A stretch of DNA of 64,000 nucleotides from Chloroflexota bacterium (GCA_020850535.1 JADZEM010000223.1:1-64000), one strand, 5' to 3'. Numbered from the stretch's first letter, positions 295 through 25,287 are shown. The notes: generated from the letters alone by a model not told the origin. Numbers and translations: made by a program.

Positions 295-1593
295 CTAATG
301 GTGGGCGTGCGAGGACCGGGGCCGCGGCGATCTGGCGGTCGACCGTGGCCGGCCGGCCACCCTGCCCGCAAGCTGCACGCTCCGCTCGACGACCTCCTCC
401 CCGACCTGCTCCAGCAAGTGGAGGATGTGGCGCGGATAGTAGAGCGCCGAGAGGCCGGATGGCAGCGGATCGGTGGAAAGCTCGTGCTTAGTCGGCACCA
501 GGGCGACGTGCAGGCAGTAGCGCAGCCGCTGCCAGGCCGATTCCATCGCGCGGAGGTAGAAGAGGTTGCGCGCCGCGAACAGCTCGTCCGTCTCCGCGAA
601 CAACTGGCGGACCACCGTCTGCGCCAGATCGACCAGGATCGGATCGTCGGCGGCCCGCTTGACGACCCACGGTGGTATGGCGGCGTCCAGCAACTCGGCG
701 GCCAGGAGCAGCCCGAGCAGCAGCATCCGAGCGCTGCCCATCTCCGTCGCCAGCCGCACCAGCCGTGCCCAGTCCAGCTCCGGCCGCGAGGCGGCGATCT
801 CCGCAAGATCGCAGAGCCAGCGCAGCTGCTCCCAGCGGTGCTTGGCTCCGTGCAGGCAGAGGAACAGCAGCAGATCCGTCACGGCGAGGCTGCGGATCGT
901 GACGCCTTGCAGGTCGGCCGTCTCAAGCTCCCCCCAGAGCCGCGTCAGGTCGAAGGGGAGTGAAAAATAGTGCGGCATCAAGTCCCAGTGGACTTCGACC
1001 ATGATGGAGCCATCGGCGCTCACGAGATCGATGGCGCATTCGGACTGGGTGTAGGCGACCCGCCCCAGGCCGTGGAGGTCGAGGGCGCGCCGATAGCCGC
1101 GCTCGTGCAACAGTTGGAGCGCACGCCGCAGATCGCGCCGCTTGACCAGGATGTCCAGGTCGACGTACTGGCGCAGCGAAGGGTTGGCGTAGGCCGCCGC
1201 CGCCAGCACCGGCCCCTTGAACGGGACGGTGGCGACCCCCTGCCCTTCGAGCAGTTGCACGACGTCCAGCAGCTCGCGCTGCGAGAGCAGGTTGTGCGCC
1301 GCGTTCGCCAGGAACTGCGCGCGGAGGTCTGCGAGCACGCTCGGGGGCGACAGATCCCGGCCGTGGGCGTGGAGCTGCCAGGAGAGCAGCGCCGTCACGC
1401 CGTTGGCCTGGGCGATCCGCTGGAGGTACGCCCAGTCCAGGGGGCCAGCCAGCCGGGCGCGAAGCTGGGCTGCCGCCCTGGCGTCCAGGCGGGAGCGTGC
1501 ACCGAGCAGCAGTACCGCGGCCTCGGGACGCAGCCCCTGCGCCAGCCCCGCCATCGCCGAACGCACGGCCGCTCGTCCCGCCTCAGCCCGCAC
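295..1593 (-). CDS. nucleotidyltransferase-family protein associated with the lasso-peptide cluster
   Basis: A 432-residue protein of the type seen in the 'uncharacterised nucleotidyltransferase' family (NTP_transf_5). The N-terminal half carries VPFKGPVLA (residues 123–131) and RQYVDLDILV (141–150), whose D-x-D pair should bind the metal-nucleotide. Further on is the family-like HGAKHRWEQLRWLCDLAEI. It is transcribed divergently from the lasso operon. Related enzymes accompany lasso clusters that also have an HPr-kinase-like enzyme, where they are thought to elaborate the phosphate on the peptide C-terminus. That role is inferred here from context; an unrelated metabolite target is possible. 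The ATG at 1593 gives the longest reading; an internal ATG 13 codons later is an alternative. The C-terminal tail is Arg/Pro/His-rich. Confidence 0.8.
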   Translation of the reverse strand: MRAEAGRAAVRSAMAGLAQGLRPEAAVLLLGARSRLDARAAAQLRARLAGPLDWAYLQRIAQANGVTALLSWQLHAHGRDLSPPSVLADLRAQFLANAAHNLLSQRELLDVVQLLEGQGVATVPFKGPVLAAAAYANPSLRQYVDLDILVKRRDLRRALQLLHERGYRRALDLHGLGRVAYTQSECAIDLVSADGSIMVEVHWDLMPHYFSLPFDLTRLWGELETADLQGVTIRSLAVTDLLLFLCLHGAKHRWEQLRWLCDLAEIAASRPELDWARLVRLATEMGSARMLLLGLLLAAELLDAAIPPWVVKRAADDPILVDLAQTVVRQLFAETDELFAARNLFYLRAMESAWQRLRYCLHVALVPTKHELSTDPLPSGLSALYYPRHILHLLEQVGEEVVERSVQLAGRVAGRPRSTARSPRPRSSHAHH

Positions 1594-2094
1594 TACGCTG
1601 TCACCGCGCGGCCGCCTGCCGCCCGGGCGCCAGTGTCGTCATGGTGTACACGCGCTGTACCCTCCGGCCCGCCGCGCCTGGATCGCGCGCAGCCCGCCCG
1701 TGTGGCAGGCATACCCGCAAGCCATGCGTGAGAGTATGCACAGCGAGGCCCGCAGCCCGCTCGCTCACGGCGGCGTCACGACGTCGCCAATGTGATGATT
1801 TTGACATGATACGGAGAGCAGTATGCTGACCACTCAACCTCTTCTCAACATGCTTCATGTACTCAATCTGCCCTCAACCATTCCTCATTCTTTGGGCATT
1901 GACGGTGTAACAGTACCATACAGATCATCAGAATATCACACAAATTGGGTAGGAAAAGGACTTTACGACATTGTCGATACTTCCGTAAGATCACTGCACC
2001 GATCTCTCCTTCGCCGTTCGTCAGGTTGCCAGGATACGGCCGTTCTGGCTTCTGTGTGACCCCTGGCGCGATTTGCGTGAGCCGGAGGCGCCCT
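1594..2094. promoter_or_regulatory. divergent, partly AT-rich promoter region of the lasso cluster
   Basis: About 500 bases separate the divergent nucleotidyltransferase from the first lasso gene, and no convincing gene lies in them. From about 1795 to 2060 base composition drops to near balance, unlike the GC-rich surroundings. Candidate rightward promoters are TTGACG (1899–1904) with GATCAT 18 bases on, and TTTACG (1962–1967) with TAAGAT (1986–1991). TTGACA occurs at 1801–1806 with only a weak TATGCT 15 bases on. An imperfect dyad GTACA-CGCGC-TGTAC at 1646–1660 is a possible operator. None of these is proven. Confidence 0.4.
2084..2088 (+). promoter_or_regulatory. ribosome binding site of the B1 gene
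   Basis: GGAGG six bases before TTG 2095. It decides the start over the long upstream open frame, whose encoded residues are not domain-like. Confidence 0.6.
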
Positions 2095-2373
2095 TTGCAC
2101 AGCACACTCACGTTCCGCCCTGCCAGTCACGTCGCTGTCGCCGAGTTCGATGGTGAGACCGTCCTGCTCAACGTCTCGTCTGGCATCTACTTCGGCCTCA
2201 ACCCGATCGCCAGCCGCATCTGGCAGTTGCTGGGGACTGGCGCCAGTGAGCCGCTGATCGTCCAGACGCTGCTCGACGAGTATGACGTGGACGAGGCCCG
2301 TCTCCGCGCGGATGTCGCGGCGACGGTGCGGCAGCTCGCGGCTGATGGGCTGGTCTGTCAGGTTGAAGCGTAG
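2095..2373 (+). CDS. lasso-peptide leader-binding protein B1 (PqqD-like RRE)
   Basis: A 92-residue stand-alone PqqD-like domain, the RiPP recognition element that binds the precursor leader and presents it to the B2 protease. Typical features are FDGETVLLNVSSGIYFGLN, a short winged helix (IASRIWQLL), and a C-terminal helix ending in LAADGLVCQ. The frame stays open back to 1945, but the conserved domain begins only near 2104. I chose TTG at 2095 because GGAGG (2084–2088) stands six bases upstream and the resulting length suits B1 proteins; GTG at 2077 is the alternative. Its 3' end overlaps the B2 gene, so translation is probably coupled. Confidence 0.85.
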   Translation: MHSTLTFRPASHVAVAEFDGETVLLNVSSGIYFGLNPIASRIWQLLGTGASEPLIVQTLLDEYDVDEARLRADVAATVRQLAADGLVCQVEA

Positions 2374-2875
2374 CGCTGTGCGGCTCGATCTGGTGCGCCG
2401 CGCGTTGCGGTTGCCGCCATCCGAGTGGGTTGGCGTGCTGCGGGCAGCCGCCGGCCTGCTGCTGGTCGATCTGCACCTGCGACGGCGTGGCTTTCGGGAC
2501 ACGGCCCGGCTCGACGTGCCGGCCGGTGAGATCGGGACGTTGTCCTCGGCGGCGTGGCAGCAGGCGCGGCGCTACGTGCGCTGGATCGACGCGGCGGCGC
2601 TGGCGCTCCCGATCCAGGCGCGCTGCCTGCACCGCTCACTGCTGCTCCAGCGCTGGCTGCTGCGCGACGGTCTGCCGGCGGCCCTCTGCATCGGCGTGAG
2701 CCGGCCGGGTCGCCCGTTCCTGGCGCACGCCTGGATCGAGCTGCACGGCGTGGTGGTGAATGATACGGCGGCCAACATCGCGGATTTCGCGCCGCTGACC
2801 GGCCCGGCCATGTCGGCTGACGGCGCGGTCACGCCGGCGGTGCCCCTGTTTGTCGGCGTGGGGCAGCCAGCATGA
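2345..2875 (+). CDS. lasso-peptide leader peptidase B2 (transglutaminase-like)
   Basis: A 176-residue transglutaminase-like cysteine protease that removes the leader from the lasso precursor. The catalytic triad is visible: Cys94 in QARCLHRSLLLQRWL, His128 in FLAHAWIEL, and Asp140 in VVVND. The length matches split B2 enzymes that lack a fused recognition element. ATG 2345 lies inside the end of the B1 gene (29-bp overlap); TTG 2363 and GTG 2378 are possible later starts and the Shine-Dalgarno evidence does not settle the choice. The gene ends in an ATGA overlap with the cyclase gene. Confidence 0.9.
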   Translation: MGWSVRLKRSAVRLDLVRRALRLPPSEWVGVLRAAAGLLLVDLHLRRRGFRDTARLDVPAGEIGTLSSAAWQQARRYVRWIDAAALALPIQARCLHRSLLLQRWLLRDGLPAALCIGVSRPGRPFLAHAWIELHGVVVNDTAANIADFAPLTGPAMSADGAVTPAVPLFVGVGQPA

Positions 2876-4863
2876 GCGCGGTGTTTGGACTCGTGTACCG
2901 CGATGGCGAGGCTGCGCGTGCGGTGGAGCCGTGGCTGCTGCGGAAGATGGCCCAGAGCCTGCTGCATCGCGGGCCGGACGGACAGGGCATCTGGCACGAC
3001 GGCCCGGCTGGCCTGGGGCATCTGCTGCTGCACACCACGCCCGAGTCGGTCGGCGAGCGCCAGCCGCTCCACGATGCTGGGCGCGGCCTGGCCGCCACGG
3101 TCGATGCCCGGCTGGACAATCGAGCCGAGCTGCTGGCGGCCCTCGATCTGCCGTCGTCGGCCACCGACGCCGATCTCGTCCTGGCGGCCTACGCGCGCTG
3201 GGGCGAGGCCAGCCCGTCACACCTCCTGGGGGACTTCGCGTTCGTCATCTGGGATGGTGGCGCGCGGCGGCTGTTCTGCGCCCGCGATCATGCTGGCGTC
3301 AGGCCGCTGGTCTACGCCAGCGTCGGCGGTCTGTTCGCCTGCGCCTCCGAGTCCAAGGCGCTGCTGACGCTGCCCGCCCTGACGGGTGAGCGCGACGAGG
3401 CCCAGATCGCCGACTTCCTGCTGGGCGAACCGGCTGATGCCGCCGCCACGTTCTATCGCGAGATCCGCCGCCTGCCGCCGGCCCACACCCTGACCGTGGA
3501 CGGGGCCGGCCCGCGGCTGCAGCGCTACTGGTCGCCGTCCGACGTGCCGGAGCGCCGCCTTGGCTCGGACGCGGCCTACGCCGACGCGTTCCGTGAGACG
3601 TTCGCCGAGGCGGTCCGCTGCCGCCTGCGGAGCGGGCAGCCGGCCGGGGCGCTGCTGAGCGGCGGCCTCGACTCGTCGTCCATCGTCTGTGTGGCGAGCG
3701 CCATGCAGCCGGCCCCGCTCCCGACCTTCTCCTGTGTCTACGACGCCGTGCCGACCTGTGACGAGCGTCAGTATCAACAACTGGTGTTGCACGCGCGGCC
3801 CTGCACCTGGACGACCCTGGCGGCGGACGATCTCAGCCCGCTCAGCTACCTGGATGAGCTGACGATCCAGGCCGAGGGGCCACCGTTCGGCCCTGGTCTG
3901 GCCTCACAGGTTGCGCTCTACCGACTGGCGAGCGCCGCCGGCGTGCGGACGCTGCTGGATGGCCACGGCGGCGACGAGGTCGTGTCACATGGCGAGGGCT
4001 ACCTGAGCGAGCTGGCCCTGGCTCACCGCTGGCCGGCGCTGCTGCGGGAGGTCCGAGGCGTCGCCCGGACCTACGACGAGGCCGCCTGGTCGATGTTCGC
4101 CACCTACGCCCGTTTCGGCCTCAGCACGTCGGCCACCTTCCGCAGGCTCTGGCGGGCGGGCGGTGCGGTCTGGCATGGCGTGCGCCGCACGACGCCCCAG
4201 CCGGCCGGCGAGGCTCCACGGCTCGGCGTGGTGCTGCCGGCGCTGGCGGCCCGGGTAAACCTGGCAGATCGCGTGCGCGAGCGGCAGCGCGCCCAGGCCC
4301 GTGCTGCGCGCACCGAGCGCGGACTCCACCTTGCCACGCTGGACGATGGCCGACAGCCCCTGGCGCTGGAGGTGCTGGACCGCATCGCGAGCGCGGCCGG
4401 CGTCGATCCCCGCTACCCCTTCTGGGACAAGCGGCTGGTCGAGCTGTGCGTGAGCGTGCCGGCCGAGCAGAAGCTGCGGGGCGGCTGGCCCCGCTCGATC
4501 TTGCGGCGGGCGATGGAGGGCATCCTGCCGCCGGCGATCCAGTGGCGCGCCGACAAGACGGATTTCTCGCCGTCGCTCAGGCGAGGCTTTCTGACCTTCG
4601 AGCGGCAGCGACTCGACGCGGCCCTGCTCGACGGCAGCCCGGAGCTTGACGCGTACATCGACCGGGCCGCCCTGCGTCAGCGGTATGACCGCTGGCTCAC
4701 CGCCGAGCAGGGCGATGCCCACGGCGACATTCATCACATCTGGCGGGCAATGGCGTTGGGGCGCTGGCTCCAACTCACTGACCCGGTCCACCAGCAGGCA
4801 TCTCCAGTTCGCGGGGTCTTCAGTCAGGGCCTGCCTGCCGCCCAGCTCCACCTGGGCGCTTGA
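2872..4863 (+). CDS. lasso-peptide macrolactam synthetase C (asparagine-synthetase-like)
   Basis: A 663-residue AsnB homologue that adenylates the ring Asp/Glu side chain of the core so that the freed N-terminus can form the isopeptide bond. The C-terminal domain has the ATP pyrophosphatase loop LLSGGLDSSSIVCVAS (about residues 260–275) and LLDGHGGDEV (about 364). The N-terminal glutaminase-like domain begins MSAVFGLV, so the catalytic Cys2 of true asparagine synthetase is missing and no ammonia is generated. That difference plus the B1/B2/precursor neighbours rules out ordinary asparagine synthesis. It starts within the B2 stop codon (ATGA). Confidence 0.93.
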   Translation: MSAVFGLVYRDGEAARAVEPWLLRKMAQSLLHRGPDGQGIWHDGPAGLGHLLLHTTPESVGERQPLHDAGRGLAATVDARLDNRAELLAALDLPSSATDADLVLAAYARWGEASPSHLLGDFAFVIWDGGARRLFCARDHAGVRPLVYASVGGLFACASESKALLTLPALTGERDEAQIADFLLGEPADAAATFYREIRRLPPAHTLTVDGAGPRLQRYWSPSDVPERRLGSDAAYADAFRETFAEAVRCRLRSGQPAGALLSGGLDSSSIVCVASAMQPAPLPTFSCVYDAVPTCDERQYQQLVLHARPCTWTTLAADDLSPLSYLDELTIQAEGPPFGPGLASQVALYRLASAAGVRTLLDGHGGDEVVSHGEGYLSELALAHRWPALLREVRGVARTYDEAAWSMFATYARFGLSTSATFRRLWRAGGAVWHGVRRTTPQPAGEAPRLGVVLPALAARVNLADRVRERQRAQARAARTERGLHLATLDDGRQPLALEVLDRIASAAGVDPRYPFWDKRLVELCVSVPAEQKLRGGWPRSILRRAMEGILPPAIQWRADKTDFSPSLRRGFLTFERQRLDAALLDGSPELDAYIDRAALRQRYDRWLTAEQGDAHGDIHHIWRAMALGRWLQLTDPVHQQASPVRGVFSQGLPAAQLHLGA

Positions 4864-4921
4864 GCGTACGCGTGGGTCATTCCAGCGGTTGCATGGAATT
4901 CGAGAGAAAGGAGGATGGGAT

Positions 4922-5068
4922 ATGGCAGTAAAGAAGGAGTACCTGGCCCCGGAGGTCAAGGCGCTTGGAGACGTGCGTGCGCTGACGCAGCGCAACGTCT
5001 CGGGGACGAAGACCGACAAGGCGTTCCCCGCTGGCACGCCGATCAACCAGTTGACCTTTTCCACCTAA
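4922..5068 (+). CDS. lasso-peptide precursor A1
   Basis: A 48-residue precursor with a perfect AAGGAGG (4908–4914) seven bases before ATG. The leader MAVKKEYLAPEVKALG... carries the Y-x-x-P motif. With Thr22 at position -2, Tyr7, Pro10, Val12 and Gly16 fall at -17, -14, -12 and -8, the spacing known for lasso leaders. The predicted core is residues 24–48: RNVSGTKTD (ring, nine residues, Arg1 to Asp9) followed by a 16-residue tail ending TFST. The C-terminal Thr hydroxyl is the likely target of the downstream kinase. Core position 1 is usually Gly, so Arg1 is unusual. Cores starting at Asn25 or Val26 would also give legal rings but break the Thr -2 rule. Confidence 0.88.
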   Translation: MAVKKEYLAPEVKALGDVRALTQRNVSGTKTDKAFPAGTPINQLTFST

Positions 5069-5575
5069 CCCACGCGCAGCAGTTCAGCGTGACCCGGCTG
5101 GACGGGCGGCAGCAGGCTCTGACTGAGGACCTCGTGGTCCATGCTGTGCAGGGCGGGCCGGCAGTCGCCCGCTTCTGCCCAGACGTCCCGCCGGTGGCGG
5201 GCGGGCCGTGCCGAGCTTCGTGCAGCAAGCACGGCCGTGGCTGCTGTCGGGAAGGGTACGAGTCTGCACGTTCAACAGACCGGCCTCACGTGGGGCTGGG
5301 CGCGTGGACACAGCACATCGATCCGGTTTTCAGTTCAGGAGAGATGAAGGAGGCCCGGGACATGGCAAAGAAGACGGTGTACCTGACGCCAGAGGTGAAG
5401 GCGCTCGGCGACGTTCGGACGCTGACGCAGCGGAACGTCTCTGGCACCAAGATCGACAAGGCGTTCCCCGCTGGCACGCCCATCAACCAGATGACCTTCT
5501 CGTCCTGACCCTCGCGCCCGCGTTCAGGCTCACCTGACAGCCTGAGTTGCGTGGCAGTCGGCTCTGACTGAGGAC
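5069..5575 (+). repeat. footprint of the precursor-gene tandem duplication
   Basis: Sequence following A1 at 5108–5130 recurs after A2 at 5553–5575 with 21 of 23 bases matching (GGCAG, two variable bases, then GGCTCTGACTGAGGAC). The two copies are 445 bases apart, almost the same as the 440 bases between the two start codons, so one unit of roughly 440 bp was duplicated. The 293-base gap between the precursors holds no other gene that I can support. Confidence 0.7.
5362..5508 (+). CDS. lasso-peptide precursor A2
   Basis: A second 48-residue precursor, 40 of 48 residues identical to A1, with AAGGAGG (5347–5353) eight bases before ATG. Changes are mostly in the leader's first nine residues; in the core only Thr8 to Ile, Leu21 to Met and the terminal Thr to Ser differ. 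The predicted ring is RNVSGTKID with Asp at position 9, and the tail ends TFSS. The Ser C-terminus is exactly the residue phosphorylated in paeninodin-type peptides. A1 and A2 come from a local duplication that also copied downstream sequence. Together they should yield two closely related products. Confidence 0.88.
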   Translation: MAKKTVYLTPEVKALGDVRTLTQRNVSGTKIDKAFPAGTPINQMTFSS

Positions 5576-5680
5576 CCAGCGAACCATCAGCGCGTCCGGG
5601 CATGAGCGTGGCGACCGCCATGCTCGTACGCGCGCCACGTTGCTAGACGCAGCGGCAGACGCAGTACACGGGGGCAGTCG

Positions 5681-6661
5681 GTGTACAGGTACCGTGCCTA
5701 CGGCTTCATCATCGACGCGGAGATGCCGTTGCCGGAGCTTCGGTCGGCGGTGGATGGCCCTGCCGACGTCGCCATTCGTTACGGCGCGGTGGGCCGCCCG
5801 CCGGCCCCGCCCGATCCCCAGACCAGCGCCTACGCGGTCTCCCCAGACGACGTGCGCTTCTTCTGGGAGCTGGTTGGCTCGTTCCGAGTCCGGGCGGGCC
5901 GCGAGATCCTCGTGGATCCCGTGCCGGACGTCGAGCAGGCGTTGCTCCGGATCCCCCTGCTCGGCTCGGTGCTCGGCGTGCTGCTGCATCAGCGGGGCAG
6001 CTTCGTGCTGCACGCCAGCGCGGTGGACGTTGACGGGCGGGCCGCCATCTTTCTCGGGCCGAAAGGGCAGGGGAAGTCGACCACGGCGGCGCTGCTGGTG
6101 GGACGCGGCCATCCCCTGGTGGCGGACGATATCGTCGCGCTGGACATGGGGCCGCTCGACAAGGGTGCGCTCGACATGGGGGCCGGCGCTCTGGGCGCGC
6201 CCGCACCGACCGCAGGCGAGTCGATCCGGCTGCTCCCCAGCTTCCCGCAGATGAAGCTGTTCGACGACGCCGCGGCCGCGGCCTTCGGCGACGATCCCGA
6301 GGATCTGCCCCTGCTGGCTTCCCTGATCCCGAAGCGGGCGCGCCGCACGCCGGACCGCTTCGCGGACCGCCCGCTTGCGCCCGGCGCGATCTATGTCCTG
6401 GCTGACGGCCCGGAGCTGAGCATCAGCCGCCTGACCGGCCAGGACGCCGTCTGCGAGGTGATCGGCAGCTCGATCCCGGCCCGCTTCGGCAGCGACCTGC
6501 TGGATGGCCCGGCTTCGCTGACCCACTTTCAGCGGGCCATGACGCTGCTGCGGCAGGTCCCGGTCTACCAGTTGGCCCGCCCGCGCGACCTGGCTGGGTT
6601 GGGACGGCTCGGCGCGGCCATCGAGGCGATGCTGCGGCAGCCGGTTGGGGCGGGCGCCTGA
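5681..6661 (+). CDS. HPr-kinase-like lasso-precursor kinase K
   Basis: A 326-residue protein with the HPr kinase/phosphorylase fold region seen in lasso clusters of the paeninodin type, where it phosphorylates the hydroxyl of the C-terminal residue of the precursor. The P-loop is GPKGQGKSTTA (from residue 126), followed by VADDIVAL (147–154) with acidic metal/catalytic residues; HASAV precedes the P-loop as in the family. A Gly/Ala-rich insertion with a repeated LDMG follows. The terminal Ser/Thr of both precursors supplies a matching substrate. The start is GTG 5681, and the stop overlaps the exporter start by one base (TGATG). Confidence 0.88.
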   Translation: MYRYRAYGFIIDAEMPLPELRSAVDGPADVAIRYGAVGRPPAPPDPQTSAYAVSPDDVRFFWELVGSFRVRAGREILVDPVPDVEQALLRIPLLGSVLGVLLHQRGSFVLHASAVDVDGRAAIFLGPKGQGKSTTAALLVGRGHPLVADDIVALDMGPLDKGALDMGAGALGAPAPTAGESIRLLPSFPQMKLFDDAAAAAFGDDPEDLPLLASLIPKRARRTPDRFADRPLAPGAIYVLADGPELSISRLTGQDAVCEVIGSSIPARFGSDLLDGPASLTHFQRAMTLLRQVPVYQLARPRDLAGLGRLGAAIEAMLRQPVGAGA

Positions 6662-8622
6662 TGGCGGACGGGCAATCGCCCGGGGGGATCATCGGGCGGC
6701 TGCGTGAGAGCGCCGCGAGCCTGGTCTACTGGCCGCGCGCCTTTCGGCTGATCTGGACGGCCGCCCCGCGCCACACGGCGTGGTGGCTGGCCTTGCTGAC
6801 GGTGCAGGGCATCCTGCCGGCCGTCACGGTCTATCTGACCAAGGAGGTCGTTGACAGCATCGTCGGGGCGCTCGAGAGCGGCGGCGTCTGGGATCAGGCG
6901 GCCCCGGCGCTCGGGCTGATCGTGCTGGCGGCCCTGGTGCTCCTGGCGACGGAGAGCCTTCAGGGTATCGCGGACTGGGTTCGCACGGTCCAGACGGAGC
7001 GCGTCGAGGACTACGTCAAGGGGCTGGTTCATCACCAGTCGGTCGCGGCGGACTTCGCCGCGTTCGAGTCGTCCGAGTATCACGACCGGCTGGATCAGGC
7101 CCGCCGCGAGGCCGCCAGCCGGCCGGCTGCCCTGCTCGCCAGCCTCGGGAGCCTCGCCCAGAACGGGCTGACGCTGGTGGTGATGGCGGCCATGCTGTTC
7201 CCCTACGGCGTCTGGCTCCCGTTCGCCCTGGTGCTGAGCACCGCGCCGGCTGTCTACGTCGTGCTGGCCACGGGCTGGCGCTACCACCGCTGGTGGGAGG
7301 GCACGACCACGGCCCGCCGCTGGACTCACTACTACGACGCCCTGCTGAGCGACCGGCTGTACGCCCCGGAGCTGCGGCTGTTCGGGCTGGGGCGGCACGT
7401 CGCCGGGCTGTTTCAGCAGGGGCGGCAGACCCTCCGGGCCGAGCAATCGACGTTGCTGCGGCAGCAGGCCCTGGCCCGCCTCGGTGCGAGCGCGTTGGCG
7501 TTGCTGCTGACGGGCTGTGTGCTGGCCTGGATGGTGCTGCGGACGCTCCAGGGGGCGCTTACGCTCGGGGATCTGGCGCTGTTCTGGCAGGCGTTCAGCA
7601 GAGGGCAGGCCCTGGCGCAGTCACTCCTGGGACACGTGAGCCAGCTCTACACCAACACCCTGTTCCTGAAGAACCTGTTCGCCTTCCTCGATCTCAAGCA
7701 GGAGATCGTGTCGCCGGCCGTGCCGGCCCCCGTCCCGGAGCGGTTGACGCAGGGCATCGCCTTCAAGGACGTGACGTTCCGCTACCCGGGCGCCGAGCGG
7801 CCGGCCCTGGACGGCTTCTCGCTGACGGTGTCGGCCGGCTCGATTGTGGCGGTGGTCGGTCCGAACGGGGCCGGTAAGTCGTCGATGCTCAAGCTGCTCT
7901 GCCGGCTCTACGAGCCTGACGCCGGCAGCATCGAGATCGACGGCGTCGACCTGCGCACCTTTGACCTGGAGGAGCTGTGGGCACACATCGCCGTGCTGTT
8001 CCAGTATCCCGGCTGCTACGTGGCCACGGCCCGCGAGAACATCGCCTACGGCGACCTGCACGGCCAGCCGACGGCGGAGGCTATTGAGCGGGCGGCGCGG
8101 GCGGCCGGCGCGCACGAGCCGATCTCGCAGCTGCCGCGCGGCTACGACACGCTGCTCGGGAAGGGGTTCGGGGACGGACTCGACCTGAGCGGCGGCCAGT
8201 GGCAGCGGGTCGCGATGGCCCGCGCCTACCTGCGTGACGCCCCCATCGTCCTGCTGGACGAGCCAACCAGCTTCATGGACTCCTGGGCCGAGGCCGACTG
8301 GTTCGAGCGGCTGCGGACCCTGATGGCCGGGCGGACGGCGCTGGTCATCACGCATCGCTTCACCATCGCGCGGCGGGCCGACATCATCCAGGTGATGGAT
8401 GGTGGCAGGATCGTCGAGTCTGGCAGCCACGAGAGCCTGCTGCGGGCGAACGGCCGGTACGCTGAGTCGTGGCGAGCGCAGATGCGGGCCGGGCTCTCGC
8501 CCGACCCCGATCTGGATGGGGGTGCTCCCGAGCTGGACGCGCGGCTAGACGAGCGGCAGGGCAGCCGGCTTGAAGTTCAACTGGACAGTCAACACCAGCA
8601 GCGCCGCGAACAGCCCGCGTAG
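6661..8622 (+). CDS. lasso-peptide ABC exporter D
   Basis: A 653-residue ABC half-transporter with an N-terminal six-helix membrane domain (about residues 25–345) and a C-terminal ATPase: Walker A GPNGAGKSS (about 400), signature LSGGQWQRVAMARA, Walker B PIVLLDEPTS, and the H-loop in VITHRF. It should export the mature peptide and give self-immunity. A C-terminal extension of about 35 polar residues overlaps, in antisense, the end of the convergent SDR gene. The one-base overlap with the kinase gene indicates coupled translation. No isopeptidase or TonB receptor gene accompanies the cluster. Confidence 0.9.
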   Translation: MADGQSPGGIIGRLRESAASLVYWPRAFRLIWTAAPRHTAWWLALLTVQGILPAVTVYLTKEVVDSIVGALESGGVWDQAAPALGLIVLAALVLLATESLQGIADWVRTVQTERVEDYVKGLVHHQSVAADFAAFESSEYHDRLDQARREAASRPAALLASLGSLAQNGLTLVVMAAMLFPYGVWLPFALVLSTAPAVYVVLATGWRYHRWWEGTTTARRWTHYYDALLSDRLYAPELRLFGLGRHVAGLFQQGRQTLRAEQSTLLRQQALARLGASALALLLTGCVLAWMVLRTLQGALTLGDLALFWQAFSRGQALAQSLLGHVSQLYTNTLFLKNLFAFLDLKQEIVSPAVPAPVPERLTQGIAFKDVTFRYPGAERPALDGFSLTVSAGSIVAVVGPNGAGKSSMLKLLCRLYEPDAGSIEIDGVDLRTFDLEELWAHIAVLFQYPGCYVATARENIAYGDLHGQPTAEAIERAARAAGAHEPISQLPRGYDTLLGKGFGDGLDLSGGQWQRVAMARAYLRDAPIVLLDEPTSFMDSWAEADWFERLRTLMAGRTALVITHRFTIARRADIIQVMDGGRIVESGSHESLLRANGRYAESWRAQMRAGLSPDPDLDGGAPELDARLDERQGSRLEVQLDSQHQQRREQPA

Positions 8623-10767: not shown

Positions 10768-11850
10768 TCACCGCTGACCGCTTCGCGCGCCGGCTCCTGG
10801 GGCGAACGGCTGCGGGACGGACATCGGAAGGTGCTGGCTGGGGGGTGGGGCCGGGGTCGGGCGGACGCCGCTGTCTCCAGGCGGCGCAAGGTTCGCCTCG
10901 ACGCCGCCGGCCAGATCGCTCTCGCCGGCGTTGGTGTCGCCGGCGGCTCCTGGCGCAACATCTACCCAGAGTCGCAGTCGCCGGTACGGCTGCTCCTCGC
11001 GGTTCAGGTAGAGCGCCAGCTCGATCATTTGATCGACGCCCGGGCGGGGCATCGTCCAGGTCAGCGGCCACTCGATCTTCTCGCCTGGGCCGACGGAGAG
11101 CGTCGATGGCGCGACCAGCACCTCGCGATCGCCCGGGTTCCAGGAATCGACGGTCCAGGCCTCGAAGCGGTAGCGCTGGCTGAACAGCTCGTGGTTGACG
11201 ATGCCAAGCGTCACGTTGACCGGCTCCCCGACCTCGACCTTGCGCGGCAGCTGCTCCGCGAGGCCGCCGCGCCCGAGCACGTACATCTCGGTCATCAGGT
11301 CGTCAGCCGTCGGCGTCAGCATCGTCACCAGGGCCGCGCCGCCCGCCAGCACCAGGGCGATCAGCACCAGCGGGAAGACGATGCGCTCCGGGCCGCTCAA
11401 CTGCCCGAGCCAGCGCCGCGTCGGGATCTGGGAGATGGCAGGGCGCATCGAGGGTGGCGGCTGCTGCGACCGCTGCCACAACGCCAGCAGGACGCAGGAC
11501 ACGATCCAGACGGTTTCAGCCATCACGACGGGCCAGGGGCGCAGGCCGCCCGGCGAGGCATCCAGCAGCAGCGCCAACAGCGGGATGATCGCCACGCTGA
11601 CGCCGATGCTGATGCCGATGCGTTCGGCCTGATCCAGCGACTGCCGGCGCGGCGCGAGGACGGCCAGCAGGCAGTAGCCCGGCAGGTACAACACGACGAT
11701 CAGCCCGAGCACCAGCCGAACGAACAGGACCGGCGCAGCGCGGCTCTCGATCAGCATCACCCCGAGCAGCAGCACCGCGCAGGCCACCGCTACCGCGAGA
11801 TCCCGCGAGCGCACGACGGCCCGCCCAGCGCCCTGCACTGCCACGGCCAT
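10768..11850 (-). CDS. DUF1616 family membrane protein
   Basis: A 360-residue protein with four N-terminal hydrophobic segments (about residues 18–35, 42–63, 78–95, 105–122), a fifth near 157–177, then an extracytoplasmic beta-rich part containing EVGEPVNVTLGIVNHE and LSVGPGEKIEWPLTW, typical of the DUF1616 family, and a Pro-rich tail. The function of the family is unknown; it often occurs with archaeal or bacterial surface-polysaccharide genes, which agrees with the neighbours here. It begins 42 bases after the upstream glycosyltransferase gene. Confidence 0.75.
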   Translation of the reverse strand: MAVAVQGAGRAVVRSRDLAVAVACAVLLLGVMLIESRAAPVLFVRLVLGLIVVLYLPGYCLLAVLAPRRQSLDQAERIGISIGVSVAIIPLLALLLDASPGGLRPWPVVMAETVWIVSCVLLALWQRSQQPPPSMRPAISQIPTRRWLGQLSGPERIVFPLVLIALVLAGGAALVTMLTPTADDLMTEMYVLGRGGLAEQLPRKVEVGEPVNVTLGIVNHELFSQRYRFEAWTVDSWNPGDREVLVAPSTLSVGPGEKIEWPLTWTMPRPGVDQMIELALYLNREEQPYRRLRLWVDVAPGAAGDTNAGESDLAGGVEANLAPPGDSGVRPTPAPPPSQHLPMSVPQPFAPGAGARSGQR

Positions 11851-11892
11851 CAGGTTTGACCCCTGGGTCCGGGGGTGAGGGCCTTCATTCCA

Positions 11893-13041
11893 TTAGCTTG
11901 CCACACGGTGGATGCCTCCCGTCACGCCGCGGTACACGTCGAGCGTGGCCTGGGCGGTGCGGTCCCAGGTGAACTGGGCTGCGCGCGCCAGACCGCGCGC
12001 GGCAAGCTCCTGGCGATGCGCAGGCTCGCGCAGCAGCTCACGCAGCGCCGTGGTCAGCCCCGGCACGTCCAGCGGATCGCAGAGGCGTGCTGCATCGCCA
12101 GCGATCTCCGGCAGCGACGACGTGGACGAGGTGATGACCGCCGTCCCGCAGGCCATCGCTTCGAGGACGGGCAGCCCGAACCCCTCGTAGAGGCTCGGGA
12201 AGACGAACAGGTCTGCGCCGCTGTAGAGGGCTGGCAGGTCGGCGTCTGGGACAAAGCCCAGGAAGCGGACCCGGTCCCCCAGCCGCAACTGCTCGACGGT
12301 GGCGTAGACCGGGCTGGACTTCCAGCCGGACGCCCCGACGATGACGAGCTGCCAGCCGCGCGCGTCCTCGGGGAGCGCCGCGAAGGCGTGCAGCAGCCGC
12401 GTCAGGTTCTTGCGCGCCTCCACCGAGCCGACGTAGAGGAGGTACGGCCCGGTGATGCCCTGCCGTGCCGTCACCGTAGTGATCTGCTCCGGCGTCGCGG
12501 GCGCGAACTCCGGCCCGACGGCGTTCGGCGTGACGTGGACCCGCGCGGGATCGACCCGCAGCAGCCGCACGATGTCGTGCCGCGAGCACTCGCTGACCGT
12601 CAGGATGGCGTCCAGCCGCCGGGCGACGCTCGGCAGCCACCGGTGGTAGATCAGGCGGTCGAGCGTGGTGCTGGCGGCCGGGTAGATCAGCGGGATCACG
12701 TCATGGATGGTCGCCACGCGCTGGCGCGTCGTCAGCAACAGCGGTGAGACGCCCGTCGGATCGTGGACGAGATCGAGATCGTGGCGGCGAGCGGCCCAGG
12801 CGATCTCGGCCTGGCCGACCGTCATCAGGCCGGGCAGCAGGCCAGCCCCAGGTAACTGCACCGTGGTGGGCGAGGGCGGCAATTCGCGGCCGGCCTGGAG
12901 GATGGTCAGCGGCAGCCCGGCCCGCAGCAAGGCGGCCCGCAGCTCGCGGGTGTACCGCGCGATGCCGCCCGTCGCCCGGTCGAGCGCGTAGGTGATCAGG
13001 CCAACGCGTGGCCCTGACTGAGGGCGCGGCAGAGCATTCAT
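11893..13041 (-). CDS. GT4-family glycosyltransferase
   Basis: A 382-residue GT-B glycosyltransferase. The N-terminal domain has the GGIARYTREL acceptor-side loop. The C-terminal donor-binding domain has LYVGSVEARKNLTRLL and the E-x7-E signature EGFGLPVLEAMACGTAV, followed by SLPEIAGDAA. It probably transfers a sugar from an NDP-sugar to the lipid-linked glycan made by this locus; donor and acceptor cannot be read from sequence. ATG 13041 overlaps the stop of the upstream membrane gene (ATGA) and removes an unlikely 82-residue extension. Confidence 0.87.
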   Translation of the reverse strand: MNALPRPQSGPRVGLITYALDRATGGIARYTRELRAALLRAGLPLTILQAGRELPPSPTTVQLPGAGLLPGLMTVGQAEIAWAARRHDLDLVHDPTGVSPLLLTTRQRVATIHDVIPLIYPAASTTLDRLIYHRWLPSVARRLDAILTVSECSRHDIVRLLRVDPARVHVTPNAVGPEFAPATPEQITTVTARQGITGPYLLYVGSVEARKNLTRLLHAFAALPEDARGWQLVIVGASGWKSSPVYATVEQLRLGDRVRFLGFVPDADLPALYSGADLFVFPSLYEGFGLPVLEAMACGTAVITSSTSSLPEIAGDAARLCDPLDVPGLTTALRELLREPAHRQELAARGLARAAQFTWDRTAQATLDVYRGVTGGIHRVAS

Positions 13042-14657
13042 CGCTGGAACGGACTCCTCGGCCGTGAGTGGTAGATCTGGGCCTGCCCGTTGTCGTAGGT
13101 GATCATGCTGTCGGCCTCCACGGGCAGCGGGACGCCGTAGCGGATCGCCTGCTCGCGGGTGACCTCCGAGATCATGAAGTCGCGGGTGCCCTCGTCCACG
13201 TCGAACTGATCGAACTTGATCTCGCGGGGTGTGGCTCCGCGCCGGATCTGCTCGCCGGTGTTGACGCGCTCGTCGTAGGCGACCCACAGCGAGCGCCCGC
13301 GCAGGGCCGTCTCAGCCCAGGTGATGGCCGTCGCCTCGCCGGGCTGGTAGTAGACCCACTTGTTGCTGAGCAGCGGCTCGTTCGTCGCCTTGAACAGCGA
13401 CAGCACGCTCAGGACGGCCACCAGCGTCCCGACCAGCACCGGCGCCGCCCACCGCACGACGCGGTTCTGCAGGGTCCAACTGGCCATCCAGCGGGCGGTC
13501 ACCGGCGCCGCGATCATCACGAAGCTCGGGAACATGCGGTGCTGCAGGTTCGCCGCCAGCGAGCCGCTCAGGTCGACGATGATGCTGGCCGCGCCCTGCA
13601 GCCCGAACGCCCCGTACAGCGCCCAGAGCAGGATCTCGTTCTCGGAGAACGGTTTGCGCCGGCGCAGCAGCCAGAGGATGCCCTGCGTCGCCCAGATCAG
13701 CCCGGACGAGGCCAGCAGCAGCCAGTTCGCGAGGCTGACCGTCAGGTAGACCGTGGGACTGAGCCAGCCGGTGTTGATGGCCACGTACGGGTTGGTGATC
13801 TGGGCGGGCGGCGCGTCCTTCTCGGGAGAGGGTGCGCCGAAGAACACGATGGCTATGCGCTCCTGCACCTGCTGGATCACGCGGACGTCGTGGATGGCCG
13901 GGCGGTAGGCGTGAAAGGTCAGGATGTAGGCGAAGATCATCGAGATCAACGCTGCGTAGCCCAGGCGGCGCAGGGCCGGCCCGATCATCAGCAGCGGCGT
14001 CCCGGTGATCCGCGTGATGATGATGGCGATGACCAGCGTGCAGATCAGGCCGGCCACGTACGACGTTGCCAGCAGGTTGTTGAACGAGAAGATGGCGTAG
14101 ACGCACATGTAGAACGCCACGACCAGCGCCCCGAACCTGACCGGATCGTCCCGCGAGCGGAGGCTCCGGAACAGCAGGTACAGCCCGAGCAGCATCAGGC
14201 CGCGCGTGAACTTCTCGTGGGTGCCCCGCATGATCGGGAAGAGGTACTCGGGCTGAATGTAGAGCAGGGCCGTGCCGAGGACGGCCCCCCGGACGGTGCC
14301 GGTCAGCTCCCGGAACAGCAGCCAGGCGGGCACAATCGTCCAGACCATCAGCAGGGCCGAGCCGTACATCGTCAGCGTGGCGAGACTCATCCCGGTGGCG
14401 CCGACCAGGAACGTGACGACCGCCTGGTAGGCGTACCCGTTCGGGTAGGCGAGGTCAGCGCCGGCCGGGATCAGCGTCGCGCCGTCCACCACCGCGCGGT
14501 TGGTGCGGATGATGCCGCTGGTGTCGCCCTCGCCCCAGAAGCCCCGGTACCGCGCGATGACGAACATCGACATCAGCACCGCCAGCCCCACCAGCACGAT
14601 GATGCTCCAGGCGGCGCGCGGGCTGAGTCGGTCGTTGTAGCGATGCTCGGCGATCAT
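13038..14657 (-). CDS. polytopic membrane protein, possible GT-C or glycan polymerase
   Basis: A 539-residue protein with about eleven hydrophobic segments followed by a C-terminal soluble part of about 110 residues. An early acidic loop (YRGFWGEGDTSGIIRTN) between the first helices recalls the acidic first loop of GT-C enzymes such as oligosaccharyltransferase and mannosyltransferase families, but no decisive motif is visible. Its position between glycosyltransferases and a flippase suits a polymerase or membrane glycosyltransferase. That is inference. Both ends overlap neighbours by four bases, so it belongs to the coupled block. Confidence 0.65.
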   Translation of the reverse strand: MIAEHRYNDRLSPRAAWSIIVLVGLAVLMSMFVIARYRGFWGEGDTSGIIRTNRAVVDGATLIPAGADLAYPNGYAYQAVVTFLVGATGMSLATLTMYGSALLMVWTIVPAWLLFRELTGTVRGAVLGTALLYIQPEYLFPIMRGTHEKFTRGLMLLGLYLLFRSLRSRDDPVRFGALVVAFYMCVYAIFSFNNLLATSYVAGLICTLVIAIIITRITGTPLLMIGPALRRLGYAALISMIFAYILTFHAYRPAIHDVRVIQQVQERIAIVFFGAPSPEKDAPPAQITNPYVAINTGWLSPTVYLTVSLANWLLLASSGLIWATQGILWLLRRRKPFSENEILLWALYGAFGLQGAASIIVDLSGSLAANLQHRMFPSFVMIAAPVTARWMASWTLQNRVVRWAAPVLVGTLVAVLSVLSLFKATNEPLLSNKWVYYQPGEATAITWAETALRGRSLWVAYDERVNTGEQIRRGATPREIKFDQFDVDEGTRDFMISEVTREQAIRYGVPLPVEADSMITYDNGQAQIYHSRPRSPFQR

Positions 14658-17206
14658 GTCTCGCGCCTCCGGGTCTCGCTGGAGCGGAGCAGCAGGGCCA
14701 CGACCACGCCGAACCCGACGGCCAGGAAGAACAGCGGGATCGACAGTTGGAAGAGCGTCTCCGTGCTCGGCAGCTGTGTCGCGATGGGGCCGGCCAGGAC
14801 GGAGCGCCGCCGCACCTGGACCTCTTGCGTCTCGGAGGCAACGGTCTTGCCGGTGGCGTCCTCGGCCCAGAGGCGGATCGTCCAGGGTCCGGAGCGGACC
14901 GGCTGCCAGGGAATCGCCATCTGGAACGGCTCGCCGGCCAGGACGTCGGTCTTGAAATCGCCCAGCATGGTCGAGACGCCGTCGCTGGAGACACGCTCCA
15001 GGCGAACGGTCAGGTTCGGAGCATCGTGCAGGCCGAGGTTGGTGACCGAGATGCGGACCAGTCCGGAGGCGTCGGCGGTCAGCATCCGCCCGGCCTCGCT
15101 CTCGCCCCAGAAGTCGAGCGCAAATGACGCTTCCGTCAGCGGATCGAGCGAGAAGACGCCATCCGTCCCACTCGCCACCACGTACCGCCCCGGCCGCACG
15201 CCGCGCAGATCGAGGAGCTGCGGACCCTCGGAGCCAGTTTGTGCCTGCACGTCCAGCACGAAGCGGAAGCCGCCGCCACTCAGGGCGCGGAACTCGCCCA
15301 TCTGGACGCCGCTGATGCGCTGCTCCTCGCCCTCGAACTGCTGCTGCATCTGGCGAAGGTCGCCAGCCGCCGGCTGCTTGCCCAGCGCATCAACGGCCCC
15401 CTTCAGGGCGCGCGCCTCGTCGCCGGTAGTCGGCACGACGGCCTCGTAGACGGAGGGCTTGACGGCAGCCTTCCGCAGCACCAGCTGGCCGCTGTCGCCG
15501 TAGACCAGGAAGCCGCTCAGGACGTGCAGCTCGCGCGTCTCGGTGATCTGCCCCTCGCCGTCGGCTTCGACATAGGTCCAGGAGTCGAGCCAGCCATCCT
15601 GGTTGGTGTCGGCGTAGCGGACGGCCGAGCTCTGGTTGACCTGCCAGACCCCGCCGGTGGACTTCTGGAGGTGCAGGCGTCGGTCAACGGGGCTGAGGTA
15701 GAGCAGCGGCCGAATCCCGAACTCGAACGCGTATTCGCCTCGGAAGCCCGGGCGCATCCCGCTGAACTTGCCGGCCGGCGGGATCGAGATGCTGCCCCGC
15801 AGATAGGGGCCGGCCGCCCGGCTCTGCTCGGCGGCGCGCGGGTCCATCTGGATCAGTTCGTTGTAGGACTTCTCCTCGATGGGCGCCCACTCGTAGATGC
15901 CCTCGGAGCTGGCGTAGCCCGGCCCCTCGCGCGCCACGAACGTCGCCATGTCCCAGGTGCGCTCGGCGACCCACCGCGGCAGCCGCTCGTACGGCACGAT
16001 GCCGATGTCGAACCCGCCGATCTTCACGGTGTCGGTGATCAGGTGCCGGCCGGCCAGCCCGAGCTTGTAGTCCCAGATCAGGCCGTTCGGGTTGTGGTCC
16101 GTCCAGGTGTAGCGGATCTCGTTGGCGGCGGGGACGACGTTCTCGCCGTGGCGGTCGCCGGCCTCGTAGTAGCGGTGCCGGATGAACAGCTCTGGGCGGT
16201 GGTCATGGTCGCCGTCCAGATCGTAGTAGGCCATCATGTTCTCGAAGTTCGGCACGGTGCGTACGTCGGGCAGCAGGTAGGTCAGCGCGTTGATGTGGAA
16301 GCCCTGCTCGACGGGGTAGCCGATCAGGCCTGCGTCTACGATCCGCCCGCGTGTCCAGTCGACCTCGATGGTGGGGGCGGAGTCAAAGTAGCTGCCGGCC
16401 CGGTCGGCAGCGCCGCGCCCGAGCAGCGGCCAGAGGATGGCGGCGGCGTTCTCGCGCGGGTGGACGCGGCCGGAGTTGTACTGGACGCCCATGCGGTGCA
16501 GGCCCGACGACTCCGGCGACGGCGCGAGCAGCCGGTTGAGCATGTACTCGGGCGTACCGTCGCCGTCCTCGTCCGCGAAGATGGTCTCGGCGTCCACGCG
16601 GCCATCGCGCCTCATGGCGTTGACCAGCTCCTGTGAGTTCTCCTCGCCGGGAAACAGGCCGTCTTGTGCGAAGCGCAGGTTGTAGGACAGGCCGCCGTCG
16701 CCGCGCGTCCAGGTTGACCAGGTGGAAACGGTCAGGCGGGGGAAGCGCGTCTCGGTGATGACCGGCTGGCCCAGGGCGTTGACGTGGTACGCCACCATCC
16801 CGTCGCCGTCGTCGTCGTCGAACATGCGGGCCTCGACGCGCGTCTCGTCGACCCGCGCGAACTGGATGATCAGCTCGGCGCGGTTGTTGCCGCCCACGTC
16901 GAAGACCCAGGTGTCGTTCTCGAAGTCCGTGGCGGTGGCCCAGTCTTCGCTGGTGGCCATGTCCTCGCCGCCGTCGAAGACCTGGATGCGGTCAGCGCCG
17001 CCGGCGAAGTTCGACTCGATGGTGGTGAGGTCCATCCGACCGTCGCCGTTCTGGTCGGTCTGGAAGACGCGGCTGATCTCCAGCTCAGGCTGCGGCGTCG
17101 GGGTGGCCGTCTGGCCTTGCGCCACGGTCGGCGGCCCGATCAGCGCGGTGCTGCACGCGAACGCGAGCGCGCCGCCGAGAGCGATGGAGCGTAGACGCTG
17201 CTTCAT
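14654..17206 (-). CDS. large secreted/anchored protein with EF-hand-like calcium loops
   Basis: An 850-residue protein with a signal peptide (MKQRLRSIALGGALAFACST..., cleavage near AQGQ) and a C-terminal transmembrane helix (about residues 820–845, LFFLAVGFGVVVALLL) followed by a short basic tail. At least five D-x-D/N-x-D-G loops are visible, including DQNGDGRMD, DDDGDGMV, DEDGDGTPE and DTNQDGWLD, the pattern of calcium-binding dockerin or FG-GAP-like proteins. The C-terminal third looks like CARDB/Ig-like domains (VRISVTNLGLHDAPNLTVRLER). It is an exported, membrane-tethered calcium-dependent protein; its enzymatic role is unknown. Overlaps of four bases at both ends place it in the glycan operon. 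Confidence 0.75.
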   Translation of the reverse strand: MKQRLRSIALGGALAFACSTALIGPPTVAQGQTATPTPQPELEISRVFQTDQNGDGRMDLTTIESNFAGGADRIQVFDGGEDMATSEDWATATDFENDTWVFDVGGNNRAELIIQFARVDETRVEARMFDDDDGDGMVAYHVNALGQPVITETRFPRLTVSTWSTWTRGDGGLSYNLRFAQDGLFPGEENSQELVNAMRRDGRVDAETIFADEDGDGTPEYMLNRLLAPSPESSGLHRMGVQYNSGRVHPRENAAAILWPLLGRGAADRAGSYFDSAPTIEVDWTRGRIVDAGLIGYPVEQGFHINALTYLLPDVRTVPNFENMMAYYDLDGDHDHRPELFIRHRYYEAGDRHGENVVPAANEIRYTWTDHNPNGLIWDYKLGLAGRHLITDTVKIGGFDIGIVPYERLPRWVAERTWDMATFVAREGPGYASSEGIYEWAPIEEKSYNELIQMDPRAAEQSRAAGPYLRGSISIPPAGKFSGMRPGFRGEYAFEFGIRPLLYLSPVDRRLHLQKSTGGVWQVNQSSAVRYADTNQDGWLDSWTYVEADGEGQITETRELHVLSGFLVYGDSGQLVLRKAAVKPSVYEAVVPTTGDEARALKGAVDALGKQPAAGDLRQMQQQFEGEEQRISGVQMGEFRALSGGGFRFVLDVQAQTGSEGPQLLDLRGVRPGRYVVASGTDGVFSLDPLTEASFALDFWGESEAGRMLTADASGLVRISVTNLGLHDAPNLTVRLERVSSDGVSTMLGDFKTDVLAGEPFQMAIPWQPVRSGPWTIRLWAEDATGKTVASETQEVQVRRRSVLAGPIATQLPSTETLFQLSIPLFFLAVGFGVVVALLLRSSETRRRET

Positions 17207-18435
17207 GCGGTCCCCCGGGCAAGGTCCGGATGGTCGGGCGTGGCCGTGTCGCGGGCCGGCGTCCGCCCGTACAGCAGGTCGAGCTGCGCCGCCGAGGCAG
17301 CCCACGAGAATTGCGCGGCGTGCTGACGGCCACCCTCGCCGAGCCGACGCCGCAGCTCCGGATCGGCGATGAGCGTCCGCATGGCGGCCAGCAGGGCGTC
17401 CTCGTCGCCGGGCGGCACGGTGATGCCGCAGGCCGGCGTCACGATCTCGGGCAGACCGCCGGTCGCCGAGGCGATCACTGGCCGACTGCTCGCCGCCGCT
17501 TCGAGCGCCACCAGCCCGAACGCTTCGTGCCAGACGGACGGCACAACCAGGATGTCGGCAGCGGCGTAGACGGCTGGCATCTCGCGGGATGGCACGTTCC
17601 CGAGCGCCCGCACGGCCCCCGAGGCGATGCCGTCCGCCAGTGCGGCGTAGACGGTCTGGTCGTAGCCGCCGTCGTCCTCGCGGTGGACCCGGCCGCCCCA
17701 GAGATCGCGCCCGCCGGCCAGCACCAGCCGCGCTGCTCCCGTGCCCAGACGCTCGTAGGCCCGCGCCAGATGCAGGACGCCCTTCTCCGGCACGACGGCC
17801 CCGGCGTAGAGCAGCACCGGCTCGTCGCGGCGGACGCCCCAGGAGGCTCGCAACTGGGCGGCCTGCTCGGCCACCTGCGAGCCGCCGTACCGCCCATACT
17901 CGACGCCGCAGTAGACCGTGTGGACGTTGCCAGCCGCGCCCAGCCCGCGCCTGACCTGGGCCGTCACAAAGTGGCTGTTGCCGACCTGGACATGGCTGGT
18001 CCGGGCCACCAGGGCGAAATCAGCCGGTGAGAAATCGGTCCGAACGCCCCGCGTACTGACGTAGAGTGGGTCGGCGTGGAAGTGGATCACGCGGCGGCCG
18101 ACCGGCAGGCCGCGCAGGTAGTAGTAGTTGTGGGCATGCACCACGTCCGGCCGCAGCTTGAGGCAGTACAGCAGGTTCGCCAGGTGCGTTCGGAAATCGA
18201 TGGACCGCCCGGCCACGCGCACCTGCCCCCACGAGACCGCCCGACGCACGGCGAGGCGGACGCCCCGCCAGCGCGTCTCCCAGGCCTCCGCGCCGACTGC
18301 CAGGATCGTCACGTCGTGGCCGCGCTGCACCTGGGCGGCCGCCAGCTCCAGCGCGGCCCGAACCACCCCGCTGCTGCCGGTGGTGTCCGGTTGCCGCGGC
18401 AGGCGGCGGTCGCCGAGCAGGTGCAGGATTCTCAT
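17203..18435 (-). CDS. GT4-family glycosyltransferase
   Basis: A 410-residue GT-B protein starting MRILHLLGDRRLP. The donor-binding domain shows LLYAGAVVPEKGVLHL, the E-x7-E motif in HEAFGLVALEAAASSRPVIAS, and GGLPEIVTP. The N-terminal domain has DVVHAHNYYYLRGLP and HFHADPLY. ATG 18435 overlaps the flippase stop by four bases; the much longer upstream frame is the flippase gene read in another frame. It is one of three glycosyltransferases of the locus (two GT4, one GT2), suggesting a repeat unit of several sugars. Confidence 0.87.
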   Translation of the reverse strand: MRILHLLGDRRLPRQPDTTGSSGVVRAALELAAAQVQRGHDVTILAVGAEAWETRWRGVRLAVRRAVSWGQVRVAGRSIDFRTHLANLLYCLKLRPDVVHAHNYYYLRGLPVGRRVIHFHADPLYVSTRGVRTDFSPADFALVARTSHVQVGNSHFVTAQVRRGLGAAGNVHTVYCGVEYGRYGGSQVAEQAAQLRASWGVRRDEPVLLYAGAVVPEKGVLHLARAYERLGTGAARLVLAGGRDLWGGRVHREDDGGYDQTVYAALADGIASGAVRALGNVPSREMPAVYAAADILVVPSVWHEAFGLVALEAAASSRPVIASATGGLPEIVTPACGITVPPGDEDALLAAMRTLIADPELRRRLGEGGRQHAAQFSWAASAAQLDLLYGRTPARDTATPDHPDLARGTA

Positions 18436-22561: not shown

Positions 22562-22566
22562 GCGAA

Positions 22567-23601: not shown

Positions 23602-23701
23602 GGATCACTCCTCCGCTCGCTCCTGGGGAGCTGAACTGGGCCGCTGATGAGGTGGTGGGCGAGGCGGCGCGGCGGGGAGGCTCGCGTCGCCCCCGCGCGA
23701 A

Positions 23702-24937: not shown

Positions 24938-25027
24938 TACCACCTCTCCTGCCTGCTGGCGGAACCTGACGCGTTGACGGTTGGTGTTGAGGGGCGAGTC
25001 CGTCGCCATGCCGGATGTGACGGGTCT

Positions 25028-25161
25028 GTCATCCCGACCCCATTCGGCAAGCTCAAAGCAAGCTACGCGGGGAACGAGCGAAACGGAGGGATCTTCCTCG
25101 CACGGGTGTACAGGAGAAGCTCCCTCGACTGCGCTCGCACGCTCGCTCCGCTCGGGATGAC
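25028..25161. repeat. dispersed inverted repeat (GTCATCCCGA type), copy 1
   Basis: The ends GTCATCCCGA (25028–25037) and TCGGGATGAC (25152–25161) are perfect inverted repeats. Inner segments (GAGGGATCTTC and GAAGCTCCCTC) can also pair. The element fills most of the 350-base gap (24938–25287) between the epimerase and methyltransferase genes, in which I see no gene. Related elements lie at 52209–52305 and 54856–54959. Confidence 0.7.
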
Positions 25162-25287
25162 GGTAGGACATCGCCTTCTGCGTGGTGAAGTACGAGCCCG
25201 GGCGGTGAGAGCCCTTCTCGCACCGGGGTGAGGGCCATTCCTGGCCTCGCGGCCGGGGTGCGGACTCCCGGGCCGTATGGTTTCGGC

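Follow-up and report, generated by a model that had tools for sequence, protein, structure and literature searches.

Clusters that join an HPr-kinase homologue to a nucleotidyltransferase are already known among lasso peptides, namely those of pseudomycoidin (psm) and of bsf. We describe here a further one, which lies at positions 295-8622 of a 64,000-nucleotide stretch of DNA from a Chloroflexota bacterium (GCA_020850535.1, JADZEM010000223.1:1-64000), hereafter the window. It is a complete class II lasso-peptide cluster, another member of an already known sort. Its two precursors belong to a family, termed here LTFS-type, which sits mostly with exopolysaccharide genes.

In the psm cluster of Bacillus pseudomycoides, the kinase PsmK phosphorylates the tail Ser and the nucleotidyltransferase PsmN then adds one or two hexoses (PMC9266682). 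The bsf cluster of Bradymonas sediminis comprises A, B1, B2, C, D, K and N; its experimentally cut precursor carries YxxPxL at -17 to -12, and BsfK phosphorylates core Ser3 rather than the C-terminus (PMC10368454). The C-terminal Ser is the target of PadeK, the HPr-kinase homologue of the paeninodin (pade) cluster, and likewise of ThcoK, of SyanK acting on SyanA, and of PsmK (PMC9266682). Paeninodins occur only in Bacillota, and their leader carries WxxP (PMC13381572).

The window shares with psm the kinase and the nucleotidyltransferase, but psm belongs to Bacillota, is paeninodin-like by published description and has a precursor of another sequence class; the Bacillota kinases, moreover, fall in another clade than the kinase of the window. 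With bsf it shares the gene set and the YxxP leader, but Bsf has Ile(-2) where the window has Thr(-2), a Gly1-Asp8 ring, and a phosphorylated Ser3 where the window has Val3. The original prediction had called the cluster paeninodin-type. In the strict sense (PMC13381572) this name does not apply, for the two leaders read YLAP and YLTP (A1 and A2, respectively), that is YxxP and not WxxP, the kinase lies in a different clade, and RpoB groups the genome with Chloroflexi. The RpoB alignments to three Chloroflexi-labelled genomes are long, at 62-67%, whereas Acidobacteria, Cyanobacteria, Proteobacteria and Firmicutes yield shorter pieces only, which supports the assignment to Chloroflexota made earlier.

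Genes of the cluster and the proposed pathway

The genes of 295-8622 were translated and each was scanned against Pfam and NCBIfam profiles. The full lasso gene set is present: a divergent nucleotidyltransferase (NT), then B1, B2, C, two precursors, the kinase K and the exporter D, so that every gene named in the original prediction was recovered at its position. Profile scores and an equal gene set at dozens of related loci rule out chance.

B1 (about 2077..2373, plus strand) has a PqqD-type RRE domain (PqqD E=1e-18) and is the predicted leader binder; its scores with the lasso PqqD models, 54-60 bits, lie under those models' cut-offs. The mechanical frame opens at 1945, and the probable start is the GTG at 2077. 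B2 (2282..2875, plus strand) is a transglutaminase-like leader peptidase (NF033537 68 bits, cut-off 33; Transglut_core3 PF13471 E=3.2e-23) whose translation holds Cys, His and Asp in RCLHRS...HAWIE...VND. Its mechanical ATG overlaps B1, and the true start probably lies downstream. Both domains expected of these two small proteins, PqqD and transglutaminase, are present. C (2872..4863, plus strand) is the lasso macrolactam synthetase, with 662 bits as a lasso cyclase (NF033535, cut-off 525) and an SGGLDS ATP motif. The asparagine-synthetase alternative, against which the original prediction could be checked, fails: as a glutamine-hydrolysing AsnB the protein scores 261 bits where that model requires 267, and its N-terminus, MSAV, has no catalytic Cys2 such as the glutaminase type carries. 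B2 and C score above curated cut-offs, and the lasso cluster with kinase and nucleotidyltransferase is indeed complete.

K (5681..6661, plus strand) is an HPr-kinase-like peptide kinase (HPr-kinase C domain, 32.8 bits). With a profile built on 26 homologues, HprK/P structures are matched at E=2e-10, and the predicted structure has the PEPCK/HprK fold (pLDDT 90). Its His-Lys-Asp-Asp motif (H111, K132, D149, D150) is complete and invariant among the homologues compared; the same residues are essential in lasso kinases by mutagenesis (PMC9266682). D (6661..8622, plus strand) is an ABC exporter made of permease and ATPase (ABC_tran E=5e-29), with MsbA-like matches along the protein. NT (295..1593, minus strand), divergent from the lasso operon, is PsmN/BsfN-like (PF14907 E=1.9e-61). 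Over 21 homologues its invariant residues are K126-G127, R141, D145-x-D147 and H202. The AlphaFold model (pLDDT 89) has an NTase-fold core that is matched in the PDB. Weak fold matches include FKRP, a phospho-ribitol transferase (TM-score 0.22 on the query), a likeness of the model that is suggestive without being strong. Searching PDB sequences with the NT profile gave nothing useful, and neither promoter nor terminator consensus scans gave anything to build on.

The chemical steps, their order and the function of the product we infer as follows. B1 would bind the Y(-17)xxP(-14) leader and present the precursor. K would phosphorylate a hydroxyl of the tail, most likely Ser24 or the adjoining terminal Thr/Ser25. 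B2 would cleave after Thr(-2)-Gln(-1), and C would join the amino group of Arg1 to Asp9, closing the ring. NT would then elaborate the tail phosphate, and D would export the product. We take PsmN to be of the PF14907 type, from its annotation as a nucleotidyltransferase; an NT of that type, with its conserved residues intact, is present in the cluster. By analogy with PsmK and PsmN, the latter adding one or two hexoses, tailoring by phosphate plus sugar is plausible (PMC9266682), in line with the double tailoring proposed originally.

The precursors and the LTFS-type family

Both precursors of the original prediction stand, as 48-residue frames each preceded by a GGAG-type ribosome-binding site: A1, MAVKKEYLAPEVKALGDVRALTQ / RNVSGTKTDKAFPAGTPINQLTFST (4922..5068, plus strand), and A2, MAKKTVYLTPEVKALGDVRTLTQ / RNVSGTKIDKAFPAGTPINQMTFSS (5362..5508, plus strand). 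At 83% identity, they go back to a tandem duplication that took in their flanks (178 nt at 81%, with a 440-bp period). A1 and A2 both have the leader motif of lasso precursors, i.e. YxxPx[L/V], Thr(-2) and Asp/Glu at core position 7-9. The full ruler is Y-17, P-14, V-12, G-8 and T-2, with D9 as the ring acid. Since this ruler is shared with the Bsf precursor, the cores are fixed as RNVSGTKTDKAFPAGTPINQLTFST (A1) and RNVSGTKIDKAFPAGTPINQMTFSS (A2). Each product is predicted to be of class II, with a ring of 9 residues and a cysteine-free tail of 16. The computed masses of the dehydrated cores are 2632.36 Da (A1) and 2648.34 Da (A2). A1 ends in Thr and A2 in Ser, and in both the penultimate residue is Ser24.

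Relatives came from a cyclase search, from plasmid loci and from additional genomes scanned with a precursor profile, giving 25 cores including the two of the window. The LTFS-type family is defined in this analysis by the core spacing D9, F12, T16, T22 and S24 and by a kinase in the same clade, both of which the window has. The family was traced in Alphaproteobacteria and Cyanobacteria besides the window. D9, T16 and T22 occur in 25/25 cores, F12 and S24 in 24/25 and Gly1 in 21/25; core position 3, Val in the window, is Ser or Thr in 12 of the 25, and the leader ruler is identical in all members. The product is therefore not of a new sequence class, as had been supposed, but belongs to this family. 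SyanA, which SyanK poly-phosphorylates on the terminal Ser, may also be a member; in that case the SyanK data would bear directly on the family.

Among the closest known systems are alphaproteobacterial clusters, such as those of the Paracoccus sp. MC1862 plasmid (L091) and Pseudaestuariivita rosea (L016), with the shared core xxxxGxxxDxxFPxGTPxxxLTFS. Like the window they have K, D, usually a divergent NT, and polysaccharide genes alongside. They differ in that the precursor precedes B1 and the core mostly starts with Gly1, whereas the window has two precursors after C, a predicted Arg1 and one extra C-terminal residue. These last two are small novelties of the window as judged by its sequence; the Arg1 ring, if true, would widen the range of residues accepted by lasso cyclases. 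Residues past Ser24 are otherwise found in three cyanobacterial precursors only, as longer extensions (LTFSGTF, LTFSDTY). In most relatives the core ends with Ser24, which in the window is the last residue but one. Because the window carries the extra residue, the hydroxyl conserved in the family is that of Ser24 and not that of the terminal Thr/Ser25. Comparison across the family points to Ser24 as the likelier site of phosphorylation; its terminal neighbour would be used if the kinase gauged its target from the C-terminal end.

Trees of the loci at hand (FastTree, midpoint-rooted) place the window kinase as sister to the kinase of a cyanobacterial locus, L208 (support 0.97), within the clade of family kinases (0.88), and the window cyclase as sister to the cyclases of the alphaproteobacterial LTFS-type clusters (0.90). 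Both trees are in agreement with the family drawn from the precursors. On all three counts (kinase, cyclase and precursor) the nearest relatives are from Alphaproteobacteria and Cyanobacteria. Among 400 Chloroflexota genomes the precursor occurs in one, that of the window, which holds a single such cluster. This suggests that the cluster was acquired from outside. A wide distribution in Chloroflexota was considered and rejected on the same count, the weak matches of a broader profile in other Chloroflexota being different lasso-like precursors (e.g. L082, L083).

The cyanobacterial genome that holds L208 (G1100; L208-L210) has five LTFS-type precursors. Three are in one lasso cluster; around the two others, which lie elsewhere, no lasso biosynthesis genes were detected over about 10 kb. 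Extensions past LTFS occur in three of the five.

Polysaccharide genes beside the family

Next to the cluster lies a polysaccharide locus (10768..27368, minus strand) which, scanned gene by gene with Pfam, encodes DUF1616, GT4, a Wzx flippase, a beta-helix protein, GT2, a C-methyltransferase, an epimerase and a nucleotidyl transferase. The earlier reading of the window had the lasso gene set right and overlooked this locus. Plasmid-borne relatives, too, lie among glycosyltransferases, a flippase, a sugar transferase or an O-antigen ligase, and for this reason the context was tested on loci selected by nothing but the precursor profile. These came from 12 new alphaproteobacterial genomes, six each from the orders of G404 and G403, and were scored for at least two markers within about 10 kb. 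As controls, 40 random 20-kb regions were drawn, with most of the tested genomes represented. An alphaproteobacterial relative supplied some of the marker queries, which were applied equally to tests and controls.

All 12 alphaproteobacterial loci had polysaccharide markers, against 0/40 control regions; three loci of one cyanobacterium had none (0/3). Overall the count is 12/15 versus 0/40 (Fisher p about 1e-9), a p-value that treats the alphaproteobacterial loci as more independent than their common layout allows. Pooled, the 85 lasso loci found by cyclase search and on plasmids show only a modest enrichment (3.8 versus 1.4 polysaccharide hits per 100 kb), and since some query proteins came from those 85 loci, we rely on the precursor-profile set instead. 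A polysaccharide association has been remarked on in Bacilli for paeninodins and their linear relatives (PMC13381572). New here is the occurrence of the link in the LTFS family, outside the phylum of the Bacilli.

Because the family is mostly housed with exopolysaccharide genes, its peptides probably act at the cell envelope or become part of it. That one defined family of putatively phosphorylated lasso peptides, spread over Chloroflexota, Alphaproteobacteria and Cyanobacteria, lies mostly beside polysaccharide genes hints at a purpose, and leads to the testable proposal of a role in the cell envelope instead of, or besides, killing competitors. A more specific model assumes that LTFS-type peptides are building blocks or anchors of surface polysaccharide: K would add the phosphate, NT a sugar or sugar-phosphate, and the product would join or prime the neighbouring exopolysaccharide as a lasso-peptide glycoconjugate. 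To this last model we give slender credence.

Alternative readings

Taken as a whole, the locus very probably encodes a complete class II lasso pathway whose product would be phosphorylated on the tail, then elaborated and exported, and belongs to a cross-phylum LTFS family with a probable role at the envelope. Several observations weigh against this. The HPr-kinase score of K lies just below the Pfam cut-off of 33.3. NT groups with the NTs of cyanobacterial lasso clusters (0.97) and not with those of Alphaproteobacteria, indicating that it was not strictly co-inherited with the rest of the cluster, and L208, the family's cyanobacterial locus, shows no NT and no polysaccharide marker over about 10 kb. 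Arg1 is found in 0/23 of the other family cores and, to our knowledge, has not been described for any characterised lasso peptide; even Asn1 was termed unprecedented in a paper of 2025 (PMC12670498). The same pathway might instead cut the leader one residue later, giving Asn1, an 8-residue Asn1-Asp8 ring and, for A1, a mass of 2476.26 Da. Rings of 8 residues are common in lasso peptides, and Asn1 has its experimental precedent in metanodin (PMC12670498). However, this would shift Thr to -3 and Tyr to -18, while 25/25 family members fit Tyr-17/Thr-2/Asp9 and the Bsf cleavage follows the same ruler (PMC10368454), so that the later cut seems very unlikely.

The site of phosphorylation was originally placed on the C-terminal hydroxyl. 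A tail hydroxyl still seems most likely, but the terminal residue as such is weakened by the conservation of the penultimate Ser24, by BsfK and by the many Nostocales clusters whose kinase is intact but whose precursors end otherwise than in Ser or Thr. It is even conceivable that the kinase targets another residue, e.g. Ser4, Thr6 or Thr8 of the ring, and that the tail Ser/Thr is kept for, say, threading: BsfK, from a cluster with both K and N, works on Ser3 (PMC10368454), a Ser or Thr at core 3 recurs in almost half of the family, and the Nostocales ends beside intact kinases are N, R, P or F. Yet Val3 removes the Bsf-type site from the window, Ser24 (24/25) and Thr22 (25/25) are conserved across three phyla, and PadeK, ThcoK, SyanK and PsmK all act at a C-terminal Ser (PMC9266682); a target outside the tail is thus unlikely. 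More serious is the view that lasso and polysaccharide genes merely reside together in variable genomic islands, a link devoid of functional meaning, to which we assign somewhat less than an even chance. Surface-polysaccharide loci are variable regions, several relatives lie on plasmids beside transposases, the 12 alphaproteobacterial loci are all laid out alike (GT2, GH16, sugar transferase, Wzy) and so do not count as separate events, and the cyanobacterial family locus lacks the context. Against this, the window has a different polysaccharide gene set in another phylum, the sets of the Halopiger and Azospirillum relatives also differ, and Bacilli reportedly show the same association for paeninodins and linear analogues (PMC13381572).

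Each of four Nostocales loci (L004, L005, L019, L022) combines an intact HPr-like kinase with three precursors, whose last residues are N, R, P, Q or K. Plasmid pHALXA01 of Halopiger xanaduensis (L096) carries B1, B2, C, NT, an ABC transporter, a flippase and DUF1616; an HPr-kinase-like stretch is annotated there in pieces, and a candidate precursor lies at 6920-7054. Here a haloarchaeon has the same type of lasso cluster. The DUF1616 protein (10768-11850 in the window) thus adjoins the lasso/polysaccharide region in both. A palindromic dispersed repeat at 103-128 (unit about 53-269) has the core GTCGGGGACTGAAGTCCCCGCCTACC, of which the genome holds 264 copies with at most 3 mismatches (reversed control, 0). 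Its arms, 103-150 and 186-233, make up an inverted repeat of 48 nt, and copies are often near contig ends.

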